Of a stretch of 47,476 nucleotides of DNA, positions 6,062-47,260 are shown piece after piece. Location of the stretch: NCBI GenBank assembly GCA_029258725.1, contig JAPDKE010000039.1:1-47476 (forward strand), in the 5' to 3' direction. The translations under genes were made by a program, and so were the position numbers. Below the pieces are notes generated by a model. That model searched no databases. It was not told the DNA's origin and worked only from the letters and a program-made list of their open reading frames with translations. The DNA is from a bacterium. Its GTDB lineage: Bacteria; Hydrothermota; UBA3072; JAPDKE01. The first letter of the stretch is position 1. Every line of letters begins with the position of its first letter.

Positions 6062-6650
6062 GTATGCAACGAAAGAGATAACCTGCAAAATCGTTTACTA
6101 TGGTCCAGGGAGGTCCGGGAAGACAACAAACCTGAAGTACATTCATTCAAGGGTCCCTGCAAGTAAAAAAACAGAACTCATGTCCCTTGCAACCGAGCGT
6201 GACAGAACCCTGTTTTTTGACTTTCTTCCCTTAGAACTCGGTAAATTTGGCGGTTTCACAACAAAATTCCAGCTGTACACCGTTCCAGGACAGGTTTACT
6301 ACGATTCAACCCGGAGGCTTGTCCTGCAGGGAGCGGATGGGGTTGTCTTTGTTGTGGATTCACAGAGAGAAAGACTCCAGGACAATGTTGAGAGTTTTGA
6401 GAACCTGAAAGAAAACCTGGAGAAAAACGGTTTATCCATATACACCATCCCTCTTGTGATACAGTACAATAAGCGCGACCTTGACGACATAGTCCCGGTT
6501 CAGGAACTTGAGGAGATAATAAACGTGCTCGGGGTCCCATCCTTTGAGGCGATAGCAATAATGGGAAAAGGGGTTATTGAAACATTCAAGGCAATAGGTT
6601 CCATGGTCCTGCAGGTGATAAGAAAAAAACTGGAGGGAAGCGGTGGATGA
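6048..6650 (+). CDS. mglA: MglA-family Ras-like GTPase
   Basis: A 200-aa small GTPase of the MglA family, which sets cell polarity and controls gliding or pilus motility in Myxococcus and Thermus. The N-terminus [20 protein letters not shown] is characteristic. The P-loop is GPGRSGKTTN near residues 19-28, switch regions include ERDRTLFFDFLPL near 50-62 and VPGQVYYDSTR near 79-89, and the base-specificity motif is NKRDL near 140-144. An SD (GGAGGAAT) lies inside thiE. MglB, the Roadblock-type GAP that usually accompanies MglA, is not in the window. The next two genes, a tandem AAA+ protein and a DUF4388 protein, overlap or nearly touch it and may be partners. Confidence 0.93.
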   Translation: MSLIKYATKEITCKIVYYGPGRSGKTTNLKYIHSRVPASKKTELMSLATERDRTLFFDFLPLELGKFGGFTTKFQLYTVPGQVYYDSTRRLVLQGADGVVFVVDSQRERLQDNVESFENLKENLEKNGLSIYTIPLVIQYNKRDLDDIVPVQELEEIINVLGVPSFEAIAIMGKGVIETFKAIGSMVLQVIRKKLEGSGG

Positions 6651-8409
6651 GATAGTTGTTGCTCCTTACAATGAAAAACTTATAAAATTGCTGGATTTCA
6701 TGAGGGATAATCCGGGTTATTACAATCCCATTTATATATCCGGTCCTTCAGGAATAGGAAAGAGTTTCATACTGAAGAAGTACTTTGAAAAACTTGATAA
6801 TGCAAGAATAATAAGCAGCATGGACTTTGAACCTGAAAAGGTAGAAGAATATCTGTCGCACAGATTTTTTGGGGTGGAGGACCTTCAGCTAATCCATGAA
6901 ACAAAGGAAATCATTCGCGGATTTGTGAGCCTCATTGACCATGCTCTTGAAAAGGACATTCAACTGGTATTCACCGGAGACAGACCCTATGAATTCCTCC
7001 CCCTTGATCCTTTAATAACCTCAAGGCTCGATGGCGGAATATCCATTGAACTTCCAGGTCTTGACCCTCGCTCCAGGGCAGTTCTTATAGCCCATCTCGG
7101 AAAGGACCTTTCCCCTGAACTCAGGGAAAAGATCATGGAAAAGGATATCACCAATGTGAGAAAGCTTATGGGAGAGATAAAGAAGGCGATGATAATGGGA
7201 ACGGTTGAGGAGGAGAAAAGAGAGGAGGTAAAAAGGGAGGAAAAGCCCGTTGATGACTTCTCAACCTTTGTTGAATCGGTAAAAGAAAGCATTCCCGAGG
7301 AAATAGTAGAAACATCGGAAGAGGAGAGGTTGAGAGAGGAGTACCGTCAGAAGCTCTATGTATGGGAGATGAAGGGATTCAAAACCGATAGATTGAAACG
7401 AGCGATGGAAGGGAAACTTGAAGACCTCACAAGGGAGTTTGTATCCTTCACAACCGATGTCCAGAGGCTTATAGAACTCCAGCGACGGTATGGATGCCTG
7501 GATGTTTCTTTTCTTACTCCAGAGGAGATGAGAGAAATAGAGGAGAAACTCTTTGACCCTGATGCCGTGATGGAGCTTGAGGAGAAGATATCCCGTCTTG
7601 AGCGGATGATGGAGAGAAGAAAGGAGTATGCAAAGAATCTCTCAAGAGACCTCACACTTGACACGTTCAAAGTGACACCCTCAAATCAGGATGCATATGA
7701 GGTTCTTTCTCATCTTCTTTCATCCCCACTTGAGGGAGAAAATCCAATTGTTATTGTTGGTTCAAGGGGAACGGGTAAGACCCATCTTCTGAATGCATTT
7801 GCACTTGAATTGACAAAGAACTATCCAAATTTACTCGTTGCCTACCTTTCCTATCATACATTCCTTGCAGAGGGAGATACCGTGAGAACAAAATATCAGG
7901 ATGCAAACATACTTTTCATAGACGATCTGCATCAGATAGTGATTCATGGATTTTCCAGAAATGCCTCCTATCTCATAAGCAGGGGAGTGAAAACGGGAAA
8001 GAGAATAATAGTTGGAACCGAACGTGCACCAGCATTTTTACCCATTGCGGAGGAGGTGAAGGATTTACTTCAAAAGGGAAAGGTTGTTTACCTCCAGTCC
8101 CCCGACCCCGAACTGAAGCGAATATTCATAGAAAAGATAGCATCAAGGTTTGAACTCTCGCTCTCTGAGGAAGAGAAAGAGGAAATGGTGAAAAAGATGA
8201 GGGGAGGGTTTTACGATATAGAGGAGCTCGTGGAGAAAATACTCTCAGGAGGCAGAGAAGAGGTGAAGGAGCCAATCCCTGAAAGGATAATATCCTTTGA
8301 GGAACTGGTTGAGGAAAAACCCGCCCCTGTTGAGGAGGAAGTGAAAAAGGTGGAGGGGCTCCTGCCCGAGTTGAAGGATCCATCAAAAAGAATGACAAAG
8401 GAGCCATAA
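6643..8409 (+). CDS. Tandem DnaA-like AAA+ ATPase protein with coiled-coil linker
   Basis: I do not recognise a named family for this 588-aa architecture. Residues 1 to about 190 form an AAA+ module like DnaA/Hda: Walker A GPSGIGKS at 34-41, a Walker-B-like FFGVEDLQLI, and a sensor region TGDRPYEFLPLDPLITSRLD. A Lys/Glu-rich coiled-coil stretch follows (about 190-345). A second DnaA-like module then carries Walker A GSRGTGKTHLL near 373-383 and Walker B ILFIDDLHQI near 423. A short acidic tail ends the protein. No DnaA domain IV helix-turn-helix is visible, so replication initiation is unlikely. It starts with GTG overlapping mglA by 8 nt, suggesting a shared job in polarity or motility signalling (inference). 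Confidence 0.7.
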   Translation: MDEIVVAPYNEKLIKLLDFMRDNPGYYNPIYISGPSGIGKSFILKKYFEKLDNARIISSMDFEPEKVEEYLSHRFFGVEDLQLIHETKEIIRGFVSLIDHALEKDIQLVFTGDRPYEFLPLDPLITSRLDGGISIELPGLDPRSRAVLIAHLGKDLSPELREKIMEKDITNVRKLMGEIKKAMIMGTVEEEKREEVKREEKPVDDFSTFVESVKESIPEEIVETSEEERLREEYRQKLYVWEMKGFKTDRLKRAMEGKLEDLTREFVSFTTDVQRLIELQRRYGCLDVSFLTPEEMREIEEKLFDPDAVMELEEKISRLERMMERRKEYAKNLSRDLTLDTFKVTPSNQDAYEVLSHLLSSPLEGENPIVIVGSRGTGKTHLLNAFALELTKNYPNLLVAYLSYHTFLAEGDTVRTKYQDANILFIDDLHQIVIHGFSRNASYLISRGVKTGKRIIVGTERAPAFLPIAEEVKDLLQKGKVVYLQSPDPELKRIFIEKIASRFELSLSEEEKEEMVKKMRGGFYDIEELVEKILSGGREEVKEPIPERIISFEELVEEKPAPVEEEVKKVEGLLPELKDPSKRMTKEP

Positions 8410-40680: not shown

Positions 40681-41808
40681 TCAGGTGTTTATCCCCTGTT
40701 CACAGAACTCCTGAAAGGAATATGATGTATAATGAACCTTCTCCTTTTCTTTAAAAAACCGTTTATACCTCCATTCCTCTTCTTCTTTTTGATATAAGGG
40801 TTTCCCTTCGTGATTATTAATGATAAATATCTCCGGAGTTGAGCCTTTGTTTATTTCCGTTCTTTTCAATAAATACTTAATATGAACATCTGCATCGGGA
40901 AAAGAATATCCACAAAAGAAGATCCTTCTGGCGCGGGTTAGAACGCTCTCTGCTTTTCTCCATATTTTTTGGAGAAAGAAATTGGACATCACTTTAAAGA
41001 ATGTGGGTGGAATGATTATGGGAATCATTTCTCCTCCGCACATATCACAGTATTGGGGCTCAAAGACAAGTTTTGCAACCCTTTTTTCGAGGGGAGTAAG
41101 GGTAAGGCTTATGCATGTGGGACAGTAAAGCCAGTTTAAGGAACCGTGGAGTTTAAGCAGGAAAATGGATTTTTTGGGGTCGGGCCTCTCCCAGTATTTT
41201 ACGCTCTCAATCTTTCTTTCAAAATTCGTAAACTCCACCCCATAATCAACATGGTATTCCGGGAAAAGTTTTATAAGGGCGTTGTCTATAAGAATATCGT
41301 AGTTGAGGCTTATAAAGCATGTTTTTGAAAGTCTTTTTTCTTTTTTCAGTCTGTTTACCAGAATCTCATGGTATTGGGGTGTTGTCTCCAGTTTTTTATC
41401 CAGCACTATGGCAATAAGGAAGATAAGGTCCTCCCTTATCTGCTGGATAAGGGGTTTAGCAGGGGAGAAACTGTAATCTCTAAAACTTTCCTGTCTATTT
41501 ATGGATAATTCAAGTATTCCAAGAATTTCCTCAAAACTCGGGAAGGAGATATTCTCCACCTTGCGTTGGTTAACATTTATGCCAAAAAATGCGTTAAAAA
41601 ATTTTACCAGGCGGGTGTTAATTTCGCTGTTTGTATAGGGTATTTCTCCATCCTTATAGAGCCTGAAATACTCTTTAAATAAAGCTCCCTGAACCGGGGC
41701 TCCTTCGGAGGCAGATGCACCTGCACCAAGAAAGATAACATCTTCTATCTTCTCTATCTCTTCCTCCTTTTGGTATATGTTAAAAAATTTTTTTGAAAAA
41801 ATCAACAA
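40681..41808 (-). CDS. SIR2-like NAD-binding protein with zinc ribbon
   Basis: A 375-aa protein of the SIR2 superfamily. GAGAS at residues 28-32 binds NAD, SLNYD (N169/D171) and KLHGS (H221, the catalytic histidine) are present, and a four-cysteine zinc site lies at C229, C232, C254 and C257. GYSFPDADVHI near the end completes the fold. Bacterial SIR2-like proteins of this type are often NADases in antiphage systems, but no partner gene lies nearby, so a stand-alone sirtuin-type enzyme is also possible. The TTG start is poorly supported and the true start is uncertain. It is A/T-rich and sits among broken genes, suggesting acquisition. Confidence 0.78.
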   Translation of the reverse strand: MLIFSKKFFNIYQKEEEIEKIEDVIFLGAGASASEGAPVQGALFKEYFRLYKDGEIPYTNSEINTRLVKFFNAFFGINVNQRKVENISFPSFEEILGILELSINRQESFRDYSFSPAKPLIQQIREDLIFLIAIVLDKKLETTPQYHEILVNRLKKEKRLSKTCFISLNYDILIDNALIKLFPEYHVDYGVEFTNFERKIESVKYWERPDPKKSIFLLKLHGSLNWLYCPTCISLTLTPLEKRVAKLVFEPQYCDMCGGEMIPIIIPPTFFKVMSNFFLQKIWRKAESVLTRARRIFFCGYSFPDADVHIKYLLKRTEINKGSTPEIFIINNHEGKPLYQKEEEEWRYKRFFKEKEKVHYTSYSFQEFCEQGINT

Positions 41809-44876: not shown

Positions 44877-44906
44877 ATGTTACACTAAAAATATTTGATT
44901 TGTCAA
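44877..44906 (-). promoter_or_regulatory. Promoter of the beta-helix gene
   Basis: On the - strand TTGACA at 44906-44901, an 18-nt spacer and TAACAT at 44882-44877. The predicted +1 near 44870 leaves a leader of about 50 nt with a full SD, unlike the leaderless genes. Confidence 0.55.
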
Positions 44907-44912
44907 GCTCGC

Positions 44913-45263
44913 GATTCAAATTGGATGTTTTTACTTATGGGAATACTCGCATTTAACATCCTTATATGGCTCAGGTTATTTTATCTTCCGTCTCTTTATA
45001 AGAAGCATATGACAAAGAGGATGAGGTATCGTCTGATAAATATTCCCGGGAGGGCGGTTCAGAACAGCAAGGGGGTGAGTCTTTACCTTATGGAGGAGCA
45101 TGCGGCGATATTTCAAGAGATTTATCACATTATAATGGATAAAAAGACAGGGAGATTGTGTTTTGCTAAAGGGATTGAAGCCCTGATATGGAAGTCATCT
45201 CCCCCAAATATATTCCTCTTTACCCCCATCTTTAACCTCCTCAACCCCAGAATGAATTTTTAA
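44913..45263 (+). pseudogene. C-terminal remnant of an IS1380-type transposase
   Basis: About 115 codons survive: NWMFLLMGILAFNILIWLRL, then LPSLYKKHMTKRMRYRLINI and IPGRAVQNSKGVSLYL, then AAIFQEIYHIIM. This order matches the end of DDE group 1 (IS1380-like) transposases. The catalytic core and N-terminus are missing; upstream sequence runs straight into the beta-helix promoter. No terminal inverted repeats were found. It is a fossil, not an active element. Confidence 0.72.
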
Positions 45264-45282: not shown

Positions 45283-45864
45283 TTAGTTGGCAGTCCCGTA
45301 ACCACGAGGAGTAACTCTCTTTCTTACTACACTTACCCTTCCAAAAGGAGAAACAATTTCCCTTTCTGCCCCCTTCATCCTTCCATAATAAAAAAGCACT
45401 CCTCCGGGGTTCAGAAATTCAAAAACAAGAGACGATGGCTTTACCCCTCTTAAAAGAAGAGAGTCAAACTTCCCCCTTCCTTCTTTCCAGTCCTCTGCCC
45501 TCATATTCACCACCTCCATATCCACCCCCAGAAAATGTTTCATGTGAAACAGAAAAACACTCTTTTTTGTCTTTGACTCAAGGAGAGTGAGTTTTATCCG
45601 CGGTTTTAATATCTTTATCGGGATTCCAACCACCCCCCCTCCAGCACCAAAGTCAAGCACCTTCCCCCGAACCTCATGAATTGGAACAAGAGAGGAAAGT
45701 ATGAGCAGCTCTGGTTCTTTCTTTCTCCTTGAGATAAGATTCACCTTTTCATTCCATCTCAAAAGCTCCTCAAGATAGGCAACAAGCAAATCGAGCATTT
45801 TTTCTGTAAAAGATATATTCAGGACCACAAGACCCTTCCTCAGTGTTTCACGTGAAACACTCAT
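45283..45864 (-). CDS. rsmG: 16S rRNA (guanine-N7) methyltransferase RsmG
   Basis: A 193-aa SAM-dependent enzyme that makes m7G in 16S rRNA (position 527 in Escherichia coli). It shows LEELLRWNEKVNLIS, the SAM loop VLDFGAGGGVVGIPIKIL and LLLRGVKPSSLV. The first codons are formed by a parS palindrome (MSVSRET). It overlaps the DUF5683 gene by ATGA. In many genomes rsmG is followed by parA and parB; here a transposase remnant on the opposite strand follows instead. Confidence 0.92.
   Translation of the reverse strand: MSVSRETLRKGLVVLNISFTEKMLDLLVAYLEELLRWNEKVNLISRRKKEPELLILSSLVPIHEVRGKVLDFGAGGGVVGIPIKILKPRIKLTLLESKTKKSVFLFHMKHFLGVDMEVVNMRAEDWKEGRGKFDSLLLRGVKPSSLVFEFLNPGGVLFYYGRMKGAEREIVSPFGRVSVVRKRVTPRGYGTAN
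45536..45551. promoter_or_regulatory. Second parS-like site inside rsmG
   Basis: TGTTTCATGTGAAACA matches the parS consensus TGTTTCACGTGAAACA at 15 of 16 positions, 308 bp from the perfect site. Closely spaced parS copies are common near replication origins. It encodes part of FLFHMKHFL, so protein constraint could contribute. Confidence 0.65.
45844..45859. promoter_or_regulatory. parS site at the start of rsmG
   Basis: TGTTTCACGTGAAACA is a perfect copy of the broadly conserved ParB-binding parS palindrome. The symmetry extends to 20 bp (45842-45861). It overlaps the first codons of rsmG and the stop of the DUF5683 gene. It suggests that this locus lies near the chromosome origin and is bound by ParB. 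Confidence 0.88.
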
Positions 45865-46184
45865 TGTATCTTCAGCCTCAGGGAAACACTCTTTTCTTCC
45901 GGATTTACCTCCAGTTCCGGCTTTATTCCGTAAAGGTTTGCATCCACGTAGGCATCCGCAGCAGAGAAAAGGAGGGTTATGAGGGACCAGAAGAGGTATG
46001 TGTATCCCTCATCCTCGTTTCCCTCTGCGTATCCCTGATAGCACCGGTAAAAGCAGTAAATCTCAATCCCCCCTATGGCTATTCCTTTAAGATAATTCCC
46101 GGTATAAAACTGTCCCCCTCCGGGGAGAAGGAGAGAAAGAAATACTGCGGTTTTAACCGATTTTGAAAAAAGGAGAAGTATCAT
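45861..46184 (-). CDS. DUF5683-type small membrane protein
   Basis: A 107-aa protein with two hydrophobic stretches. LLLPGGGQFYTGNYLKGIAI near residues 19-38 and SAADAYVDANLYG near 74-86 are the DUF5683 hallmarks; a short basic-acidic tail follows. The function of the family is unknown. It is joined by ATGA overlaps to the histidine kinase gene upstream and rsmG downstream, so all three are one transcription unit. Confidence 0.78.
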   Translation of the reverse strand: MILLLFSKSVKTAVFLSLLLPGGGQFYTGNYLKGIAIGGIEIYCFYRCYQGYAEGNEDEGYTYLFWSLITLLFSAADAYVDANLYGIKPELEVNPEEKSVSLRLKIQ

Positions 46185-47260
46185 AGCGGAAGGTATATTC
46201 TCACGGTTGTTCCCTTATCAACCTCGCTTTCCACCTCTATCTTCCCGTCGTGGTCCTCCACAATCTTTTTCACTATGGTCATTCCCAGACCTGTGCCCCC
46301 ACTCTTTCCATGGGTGAAGAAAGGTTCAAAAAGTCTTGAAAGGACCTCTGGAGGCATCCCCTTTCCCGTGTCTTTAACCTCAACCACAGCATACCTTCCT
46401 TCTTTTTTCACATTTACATCGATCCTTCCCCCTTCCTCCATCGCATCCCTTGCATTTCCTATGAGATTTTGTAATGCTCTTCTTAGTTTAAGTGGGTCAA
46501 CCTCTGCCTCCACATCCTCTCCCTTTACATCCACAACCACATTCTCCGATGCAAGTTCCTCCCTCATGGGGTCAACGGTTTCCTTCACAAGGGTAAGAAG
46601 ATTGAGCCTTACCGGCTTGAGGTGCTGTCTTCCTCTCGCAAATTCAAGAACATCCTCTATCATCTGAAGAAGGACTTCGGTCTGCTGGGATACAATGGAG
46701 AGGAATTCCTCTCTTTCCTTATGGGTGAGGTCCCTTCTTCTCAGAAGTCCGGTATATCCCTTTATAACCGAAATGGGTCCCTTGAGGTCGTGTATTACGG
46801 TCTCTGCCATCTTTCCTATGGTTGCAAGCCTCTCCTCATGGAGAAGGTGTTCAATCATTTTCCTGTTTGTATCCCTCACTCTCGCTGAAAGAACCTTTAA
46901 AATCTCAAGGGCTGCCTTTGGATATTTTTCAAGCATGGAAAGAAATGTCTCTTTATCAATCTCAAGAACCGCAAGAGGGGTGAGTGCCTTTATGGTGGCG
47001 GAACGTTCCTTCTCTTCAATCAGTGCCATCTCTCCAAAGAAATCCCCTTTTTCCAGAACCGCAATCTCCTTTCCCCTCCTGAGAACCTGTGCCTTTCCTT
47101 CCTTTATTATGTAAAACTTATCACCCGGCTCATTCTCCCTTACAATCTCCTCTCCCTCTTTAAATTCCCTCTCCTTTAGTCTCTCCACCACCCACTCAAG
47201 GGCATCGGGTGGGAGAAAGGAGAAAAATGGGTTTTCCTTAACCAGTCTCCTTTTTTCCAT
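46181..47260 (-). CDS. Sensor histidine kinase with N-terminal cyclic-nucleotide-binding domain
   Basis: A 359-aa soluble kinase. Residues 10-130 form a Crp-like cNMP-binding domain (EGEEIVRENEPGDKFYIIKE, GDFFGEMALI, ERSATIKAL). A HisKA dimerisation helix follows with H157 in VIHDLKGPIS, then the HATPase domain with NLIGNARDAMEEGG, VKDTGKGMP and GGTGLGMTIVKKIVE. No membrane segment or receiver domain is present, and no response regulator is adjacent. It has a consensus promoter touching its ATG and no SD, so its mRNA should be leaderless. It heads the DUF5683-rsmG operon; the ligand could be a cyclic nucleotide or another small molecule. Confidence 0.9.
   Translation of the reverse strand: MEKRRLVKENPFFSFLPPDALEWVVERLKEREFKEGEEIVRENEPGDKFYIIKEGKAQVLRRGKEIAVLEKGDFFGEMALIEEKERSATIKALTPLAVLEIDKETFLSMLEKYPKAALEILKVLSARVRDTNRKMIEHLLHEERLATIGKMAETVIHDLKGPISVIKGYTGLLRRRDLTHKEREEFLSIVSQQTEVLLQMIEDVLEFARGRQHLKPVRLNLLTLVKETVDPMREELASENVVVDVKGEDVEAEVDPLKLRRALQNLIGNARDAMEEGGRIDVNVKKEGRYAVVEVKDTGKGMPPEVLSRLFEPFFTHGKSGGTGLGMTIVKKIVEDHDGKIEVESEVDKGTTVRIYLPL

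Follow-up and report, generated by a model that had tools for sequence, protein, structure and literature searches.

The described system which most closely resembles the one reported here is ParABS of Thermus thermophilus HB27, where one 16-bp parS lies inside gidB (rsmG) and is specifically bound by ParB in gel shifts; according to the available text of that report, gidB directly precedes parA there, and the distance between parAB and oriC is about 6 kb (PMC4409726). For P. aeruginosa, the accessible part of the respective study places nine of ten parS sites most likely within coding sequences and states that ParB binds better if the CACGTG core is intact (PMC4368675). P. aeruginosa and B. 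subtilis share the same 16-bp consensus and possess an origin-proximal cluster of about ten sites, as far as the sections at hand go (PMC4368675, PMC4409726, PMC7333895), while species with a single parS such as Xanthomonas campestris are known as well (PMC7333895, in its available passages). In excerpts from three papers it is further reported that a single high-affinity parS near the origin is sufficient and that coding sequence is a frequent location of parS (PMC4368675, PMC7022226, PMC7333895). Among open-licence PMC articles, with figures and supplements outside the search, we found none joining parS and ParB with rsmG under that name, none joining parS, ParB and WOR-3, and none containing the 16-mers or 14-mers with a CATGTG core described below.

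The window, by which we mean the whole analysed stretch of 47,476 nucleotides, corresponds end to end to contig C19 of a draft genome of 53 contigs and 2,112,086 bases (2.11 Mb). In it, rsmG (gidB) occupies positions 45283 to 45864 of the minus strand and codes for a divergent, probable 16S rRNA methyltransferase G of 193 amino acids, which scores 93.1 bits against the Pfam model GidB (PF02527, cut-off 27) and 88.3 bits against NCBIfam TIGR00138, under its cut-off of 99.5. A search with the 16-bp palindromic parS consensus TGTTNCACGTGAAACA reveals a perfect match (TGTTTCACGTGAAACA, 16/16, 45844-45859, no strand assigned) covering gene bases 6 to 21 of rsmG and a second, parS-like site (TGTTTCATGTGAAACA, 15/16, 45536-45551, likewise unstranded) within codons 105 to 110 (gene bases 314 to 329), the spacing between the two being 308 bp. 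The perfect site constitutes the core of a 20-bp palindrome (45842-45861) in which 10 bp are paired on each side of the centre with no mismatch. The one mismatch of the internal site resides in its core, which reads CATGTG instead of CACGTG. An earlier note on this DNA had described both sites, and their coordinates proved correct; its statement that the perfect one overlaps the rsmG start holds insofar as the site is situated inside the 5' end of the gene, but the start codon itself is not covered since the site lies 3' of the ATG rather than across it. If up to three mismatches are allowed, the window contains two matches versus 0.16 expected by shuffling, with 2 of 100 shuffles giving two. 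Mapping across the draft genome, as proposed in that note, yields no match with one mismatch or fewer besides the two rsmG sites, and a reversed pattern used as control gives none at this level. Two further sites with two mismatches, on contigs C13 and C14, were set aside as chance matches because the reversed control also yields one at that number of mismatches.

Within the window neither parA nor parB adjoins rsmG, in agreement with the earlier note. The genome contains one match to the ParB family, located on contig C4 (C4:11573-12100; TIGR00180, 187.9 bits, cut-off 58.45), so that the presence of a parB gene somewhere in the genome, on which the note had made its suggestion depend, is confirmed. 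The gene is intact and codes for 262 amino acids, and the best match of its product in the PDB is 1vz0 Spo0J (E 1.1e-58, aligned over residues 5 to 205), which we take to be the Thermus protein. Inspection by eye reveals what we presume to be the DNA-binding and CTP-binding motifs of ParB. Upstream of parB and overlapping with it, a ParA-family gene is present whose product of 272 amino acids is 57-68% identical to ParA-family genes beside parB at six loci of relatives; among the NCBIfam ParA equivalogs it reaches no cut-off, the best score being 107 of 180. Downstream of parB there follow an M42-type peptidase gene and a NAD synthetase-like gene, both named by sequence reading without a search. 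A frame of 1068 amino acids belonging to the SMC family is found on contig C24, and dnaA-dnaN on contig C34.

Judging from these sequences we consider it very probable that the two palindromes represent the centromere (parS) of the chromosome and belong to a ParABS system with its parA-parB operon elsewhere, namely on contig C4. The system is of an ordinary, known type in an uncommon but old layout. As in Thermus thermophilus HB27, to the extent that system is covered by the available text, parS lies within gidB/rsmG, and the ParB protein finds its best PDB match in Spo0J; unlike there, parAB is on another contig and two candidate sites are present instead of one. Some resemblance also exists to Noc, a ParB paralogue: the Noc model is the best-scoring NCBIfam model for the C4 protein (234.4 bits), yet the cut-off of 315 is not reached, and a lysine is present at the permissive position 179. 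In contrast to Noc and its NBS sites, the protein carries Arg (in GKDRS, GKDR...N) and Gly (in EGHAR) at the equivalents of R173 and G201 rather than Gln and Arg, and its sites are parS and not NBS; neither the Q, K, K, R residue set nor a Noc score above cut-off is found. These position equivalents, including 179, were assigned by motif reading against PMC7383237, the available portion of which terms the Arg and Gly parS-type pair absolutely conserved in extant ParB.

We extended the search to 40 genomes, comprising the present one (G000), nine others from its class and 30 from elsewhere in the phylum, using the strict pattern TGTTYCAYGTGRAACA and its reversed form as control. The family of the present genome (f1) has no second member among the 40. 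Strict parS is found in 32 of the 40 genomes, the present one included, with one to three copies each, while the control yields none in any genome. These numbers (two sites here) differ from the about ten reported, in the passages available to us, for P. aeruginosa and B. subtilis. In 21 of the 32 genomes a site is at most 10 kb away from rsmG; in seven further ones (G011, G012, G022, G028, G033, G034, G037) it lies on the dnaA contig within 60 kb, and in another two (G023, G026) beside parAB. The remaining two, G016 and G036, have their strict site near none of rsmG, dnaA and parAB, the parS contig of G016 carrying no dnaA, rsmG or parB and the site being 28 kb from the nearer contig end. A ParB match is present in 36 of the 40 genomes; parS occurs in 31 of these 36 versus one of the four without such a match. 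The five with a ParB match but no strict parS are G009, G015, G018 (below cut-off), G032 and G038. G014 (90% complete) shows two perfect parS beside rsmG (L102:4912-5032, G014:C153) and no ParB-family match; a contig may be missing or its ParB may have gone unrecognised. A lone site with one mismatch in G010 was treated as chance because this genome has no ParB match and the site is off the rsmG contig.

We regard the internal site as a probable secondary parS. Against this it may be held that the perfect site alone is parS and that the 15/16 match arose by chance from the RsmG sequence, which we consider possible but rather doubtful. The internal site encodes the peptide LFHMKH (residues 105 to 110), and among 17 aligned RsmG proteins Leu105 is invariant while His107 and Ile108 (Ile or Met at 108) are common, so that the protein itself accounts for part of the motif. 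In line with a chance origin, synonymous draws of this RsmG produce the same one-mismatch site in 111 of 4000 cases, and the 16 other RsmG genes all lack a site at this position. Phe106, however, is unique at its column, where 12 of the 16 others possess R, K or E. Moreover, the CATGTG core recurs in five of the 40 genomes (this one, G026, G031, G036, G037), and in three of them such a site lies 56 to 308 bp from a perfect-palindrome site (109 bp in G026, 56 bp in G031). In G037 two CATGTG sites are the only ones, no perfect site being present, and the nearer is about 0.6 kb from dnaA, although the copy in G036 resides on a contig without dnaA or rsmG. Six of the eight class relatives with parS furthermore possess another site immediately after the rsmG stop codon, exact in five genomes of family f3 (G002 to G005 and G007) and with one mismatch in G006. 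Third sites follow further on in G006 and G007, G008 has an extra site before its kinase gene about 1.5 kb off, and G001 has a single parS. If the internal site is bound, weak binding of ParB is to be expected because the intact CACGTG core matters in P. aeruginosa, according to the accessible part of PMC4368675.

Within the class, rsmG and parS are both present in nine of ten genomes, G009 (75% complete) showing neither, and in all nine parS is located at the rsmG 5' end. In each of these nine, parB and parS are found on different contigs, and the DNA examined shows neither parA nor parB up to a distance of 5.5 kb from parS, that of G006 and G007 ending 0.8-1.7 kb behind the last site. The separation of parS from parAB hence looks class-wide. 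In G002 and G004 parS is more than 42 kb away from either contig end; the distance to parB is merely bounded, however, because several of the class contigs are short. In the present genome the perfect parS is 1.6 kb from the right contig end, and parB could therefore be only about 13 kb away. The ends of this contig (1-145 and 47332-47476) are near-identical inverted copies of about 145 bp which recur where contigs C37 and C3 begin. They perhaps represent the 3' portion of a gene present in several copies, at which the assembly was interrupted. Since the last 145 bp or so consist of this repeat, the contig end can be joined neither to C34 nor to C4, and its neighbour cannot be named.

The earlier note had regarded parAB as replaced by a transposase remnant and accessory genes and had suggested a rearrangement by mobile DNA. 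In its most specific form, this would mean that in the present genome an IS1380 insertion together with accessory genes recently drove parAB out of an original rsmG-parAB arrangement. A transposase remnant does exist: at 44895-45263 (plus strand), converging on the 3' end of rsmG, there is a C-terminal fragment of an IS1380-family transposase which matches NF033539 over model positions 352 to 417 of 419 (E 4.5e-9; 35.4 bits, cut-off 180 unmet) and PF13701 with an E of 2.6e-5, under cut-off. Past this fragment a beta-helix protein and then a SIR2-like protein are encoded in AT-richer DNA. A displacement is also suggested by six further phylum genomes (G012, G013, G020, G024, G029, G039), in which about 1 kb separates rsmG and parB. 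Nonetheless, since the nine class genomes share the split, the local IS1380 fragment appears to be a bystander lying outside the system. The genes downstream of rsmG differ between the relatives, encoding PNPase and S15 in G001, a ROK protein in G002 and G004, ThiN-AIRS in G005, a lactate-racemase-type protein in G008 and unmatched ORFs in G003 and G007, and none of the ten ORFs inspected downstream of rsmG in seven of the eight relatives (without G006) matches a transposase in Pfam, four of the ten matching no family. A recent displacement by mobile DNA is thus very unlikely. The adjacency of rsmG and parB in the six other phylum genomes and in Thermus rather suggests that the split arose early in the class; in view of the same six genomes, "replaced", the word used in the note for parAB, may still fit a much older event.

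In the window, the perfect site is preceded by a DUF5683 gene (45861-46184, minus strand; Pfam 29.3 bits, cut-off 26.7) whose stop codon overlaps the rsmG start as ATGA, and this in turn by a gene for a histidine kinase with a cNMP-binding domain (46181-47260, minus strand), the first of the kinase-DUF5683-rsmG run. DUF5683 is located directly upstream of parS/rsmG in all nine class genomes with parS. The histidine kinase is found in front of it in G000, G001 and G008, whereas G002 to G006 possess a MutS_V/Smr protein (mutS2-like) and a CvpA-type protein there, as named by Pfam for G002 and by clustering for the other four; the contig of G007 stops at DUF5683. Outside the class, DUF5683 is paired with parS in G012, G035 and G036, the last of which carries, between DUF5683 and rsmG, a 15/16 site of a different type.

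The position of the site relative to the reading frame differs between the genomes. In the eight class relatives parS spans gene bases 2 to 17, across the start codon, and reads ATG TTT CAC GTG AAA CAN, i.e. MFHVKH; for G004 the start codon was set at the parS site although the frame stays open further upstream. Here, the same 16-mer is placed 4 bp further in and reads MSVSRET, and the MFHVKH frame would meet a stop. G035, from outside the class, has its rsmG frame open through the site in the same reading as here (NVSRETL), with no in-frame ATG, GTG or TTG before the site. In G017 the site is situated at the rsmG 3' end in the third frame, and in G019, G025 and G036 upstream of rsmG. Since the frame differs between this genome and the eight relatives, it is the DNA rather than the peptide which is kept. 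Beyond the carriers tested, the FHVKH peptide is found in none of the remaining RsmG among the 17 aligned. If protein and local codon use are held fixed, synonymous draws yield the exact site in 67 to 210 of 4000 cases for ten relatives and in two of 4000 for the rsmG gene of this genome; this set of 11 genes (this one, the eight class relatives, G014 and G030) was picked as site carriers, the genes are related, and codon use was partly taken from little sequence (344 codons for G007), so that the draws tell no more than that the DNA is not dictated by the peptide. A selection at the level of peptide or RNA, with RsmG needing an N-terminal MFHVKH or the palindrome acting as a translational hairpin at the DUF5683-rsmG junction, would agree with the site overlapping or adjoining the DUF5683 stop and rsmG start and with its encoding MFHVKH in eight class relatives, but is hardly credible given three reading frames plus upstream positions across genomes, fixed synonymous positions in the site carriers, and occurrences of the site or its TGTTCC/GGAACA variants upstream of parA (G023, G026) and near dnaA (G022, G028, G011, G033).

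The earlier note had further suggested an origin-proximal locus, with GC skew as a check. In this genome dnaA (C34) and parS (C19) are located on separate contigs. The GC skew of the window and of stretches from C34, C4, C13 and C14 tracks gene direction and shows no replichore signal, the sense-strand skew being positive for genes of both directions (0.17, 0.23). It gives no indication of a position far from the origin, yet it is uninformative in the window because it follows the gene strand. Among the genomes examined, parS and a full-length dnaA share one contig in 11, and subtraction of the positions of site and DnaA domain gives distances of 0.4-57 kb, namely 33 kb in G002, 14 kb in G004, 0.4 kb in G011, 15 kb in G012, 6 kb in G020, 1.6 kb in G022, 1.6 kb in G028, 0.5 kb in G033, 57 kb in G034, 0.6 kb in G037 and 6 kb in G039. 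A change in the sign of GC3 skew near dnaA is clear in G022 and noisier, in 5-kb steps, in G004 and G002, and lies 1.6 kb (G022), 14 kb (G004) and 33 kb (G002) from parS. On account of these parS-dnaA distances, proximity of parS to the origin is likely in the present genome as well, in keeping with the suggestion of the note.

From the arrangement we infer the following course of events for the ParABS system. ParB supplied by the C4 operon would bind the perfect site at the rsmG 5' end and probably also the CATGTG site 308 bp further into rsmG, the latter more weakly, if at all. Once bound, ParB would clamp and, with CTP, slide onto the flanking DNA and recruit SMC, and ParA would move newly copied origin regions apart. 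The site would have stayed at the DUF5683-rsmG junction, near dnaA in those relatives where the distance can be measured, with parAB elsewhere. ParB acts in trans, and its separation from parS therefore need not have cost anything.

A further-reaching reading appears plausible to us though short of probable: the class, of WOR-3-type bacteria, may anchor its centromere at the rsmG 5' end independently of parAB, with secondary parS arising and being kept inside or just behind rsmG, such that the rsmG body would act as a cassette for the centromere, with the encoded protein adapting to the DNA site. New sites would then have been placed directly after the stop codon in one family and, in the present genome, in mid-gene at the cost of an unusual residue, which we put forward just as tentatively. 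Beyond the single locus, candidate centromere sites are now supplied for an uncultured phylum, and the results suggest that parS can remain at one constant landmark (rsmG, near dnaA) with parAB located elsewhere. The parS copies embedded in one and the same gene in different frames represent a natural series, which bears on the reasons for the clustering of parS sites and for their varying number, a question raised in the available text of PMC7333895. In draft genomes of the phylum, parS could serve to mark the origin.

Some additional observations concern the RsmG proteins and the remainder of the window. The RsmG proteins of the class are short and reach 72-102 bits against the GidB model, those of the rest of the phylum reaching 87-174 bits; possibly, the function of the class proteins is relaxed or altered. 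The SIR2-like protein mentioned above (40681-41808, minus strand) resembles SIR2 proteins of defence systems (PADLOC Aga_SIR2, E 7.3e-13), its score against NCBIfam SIR2_antiphage being far under cut-off. At 6643-8409 (plus strand) a protein of 588 amino acids is encoded, the second half of which harbours a DnaA-type ATPase domain (PF00308, 92.4 bits), while a second P-loop is located close to the beginning of the protein. The same cluster codes for a Ras/Arf-like GTPase, a DUF4388-TPR protein and CheR. Elsewhere in the phylum, PF00308 is matched by frames of about 590 to 890 amino acids, several of them with two matches per frame.
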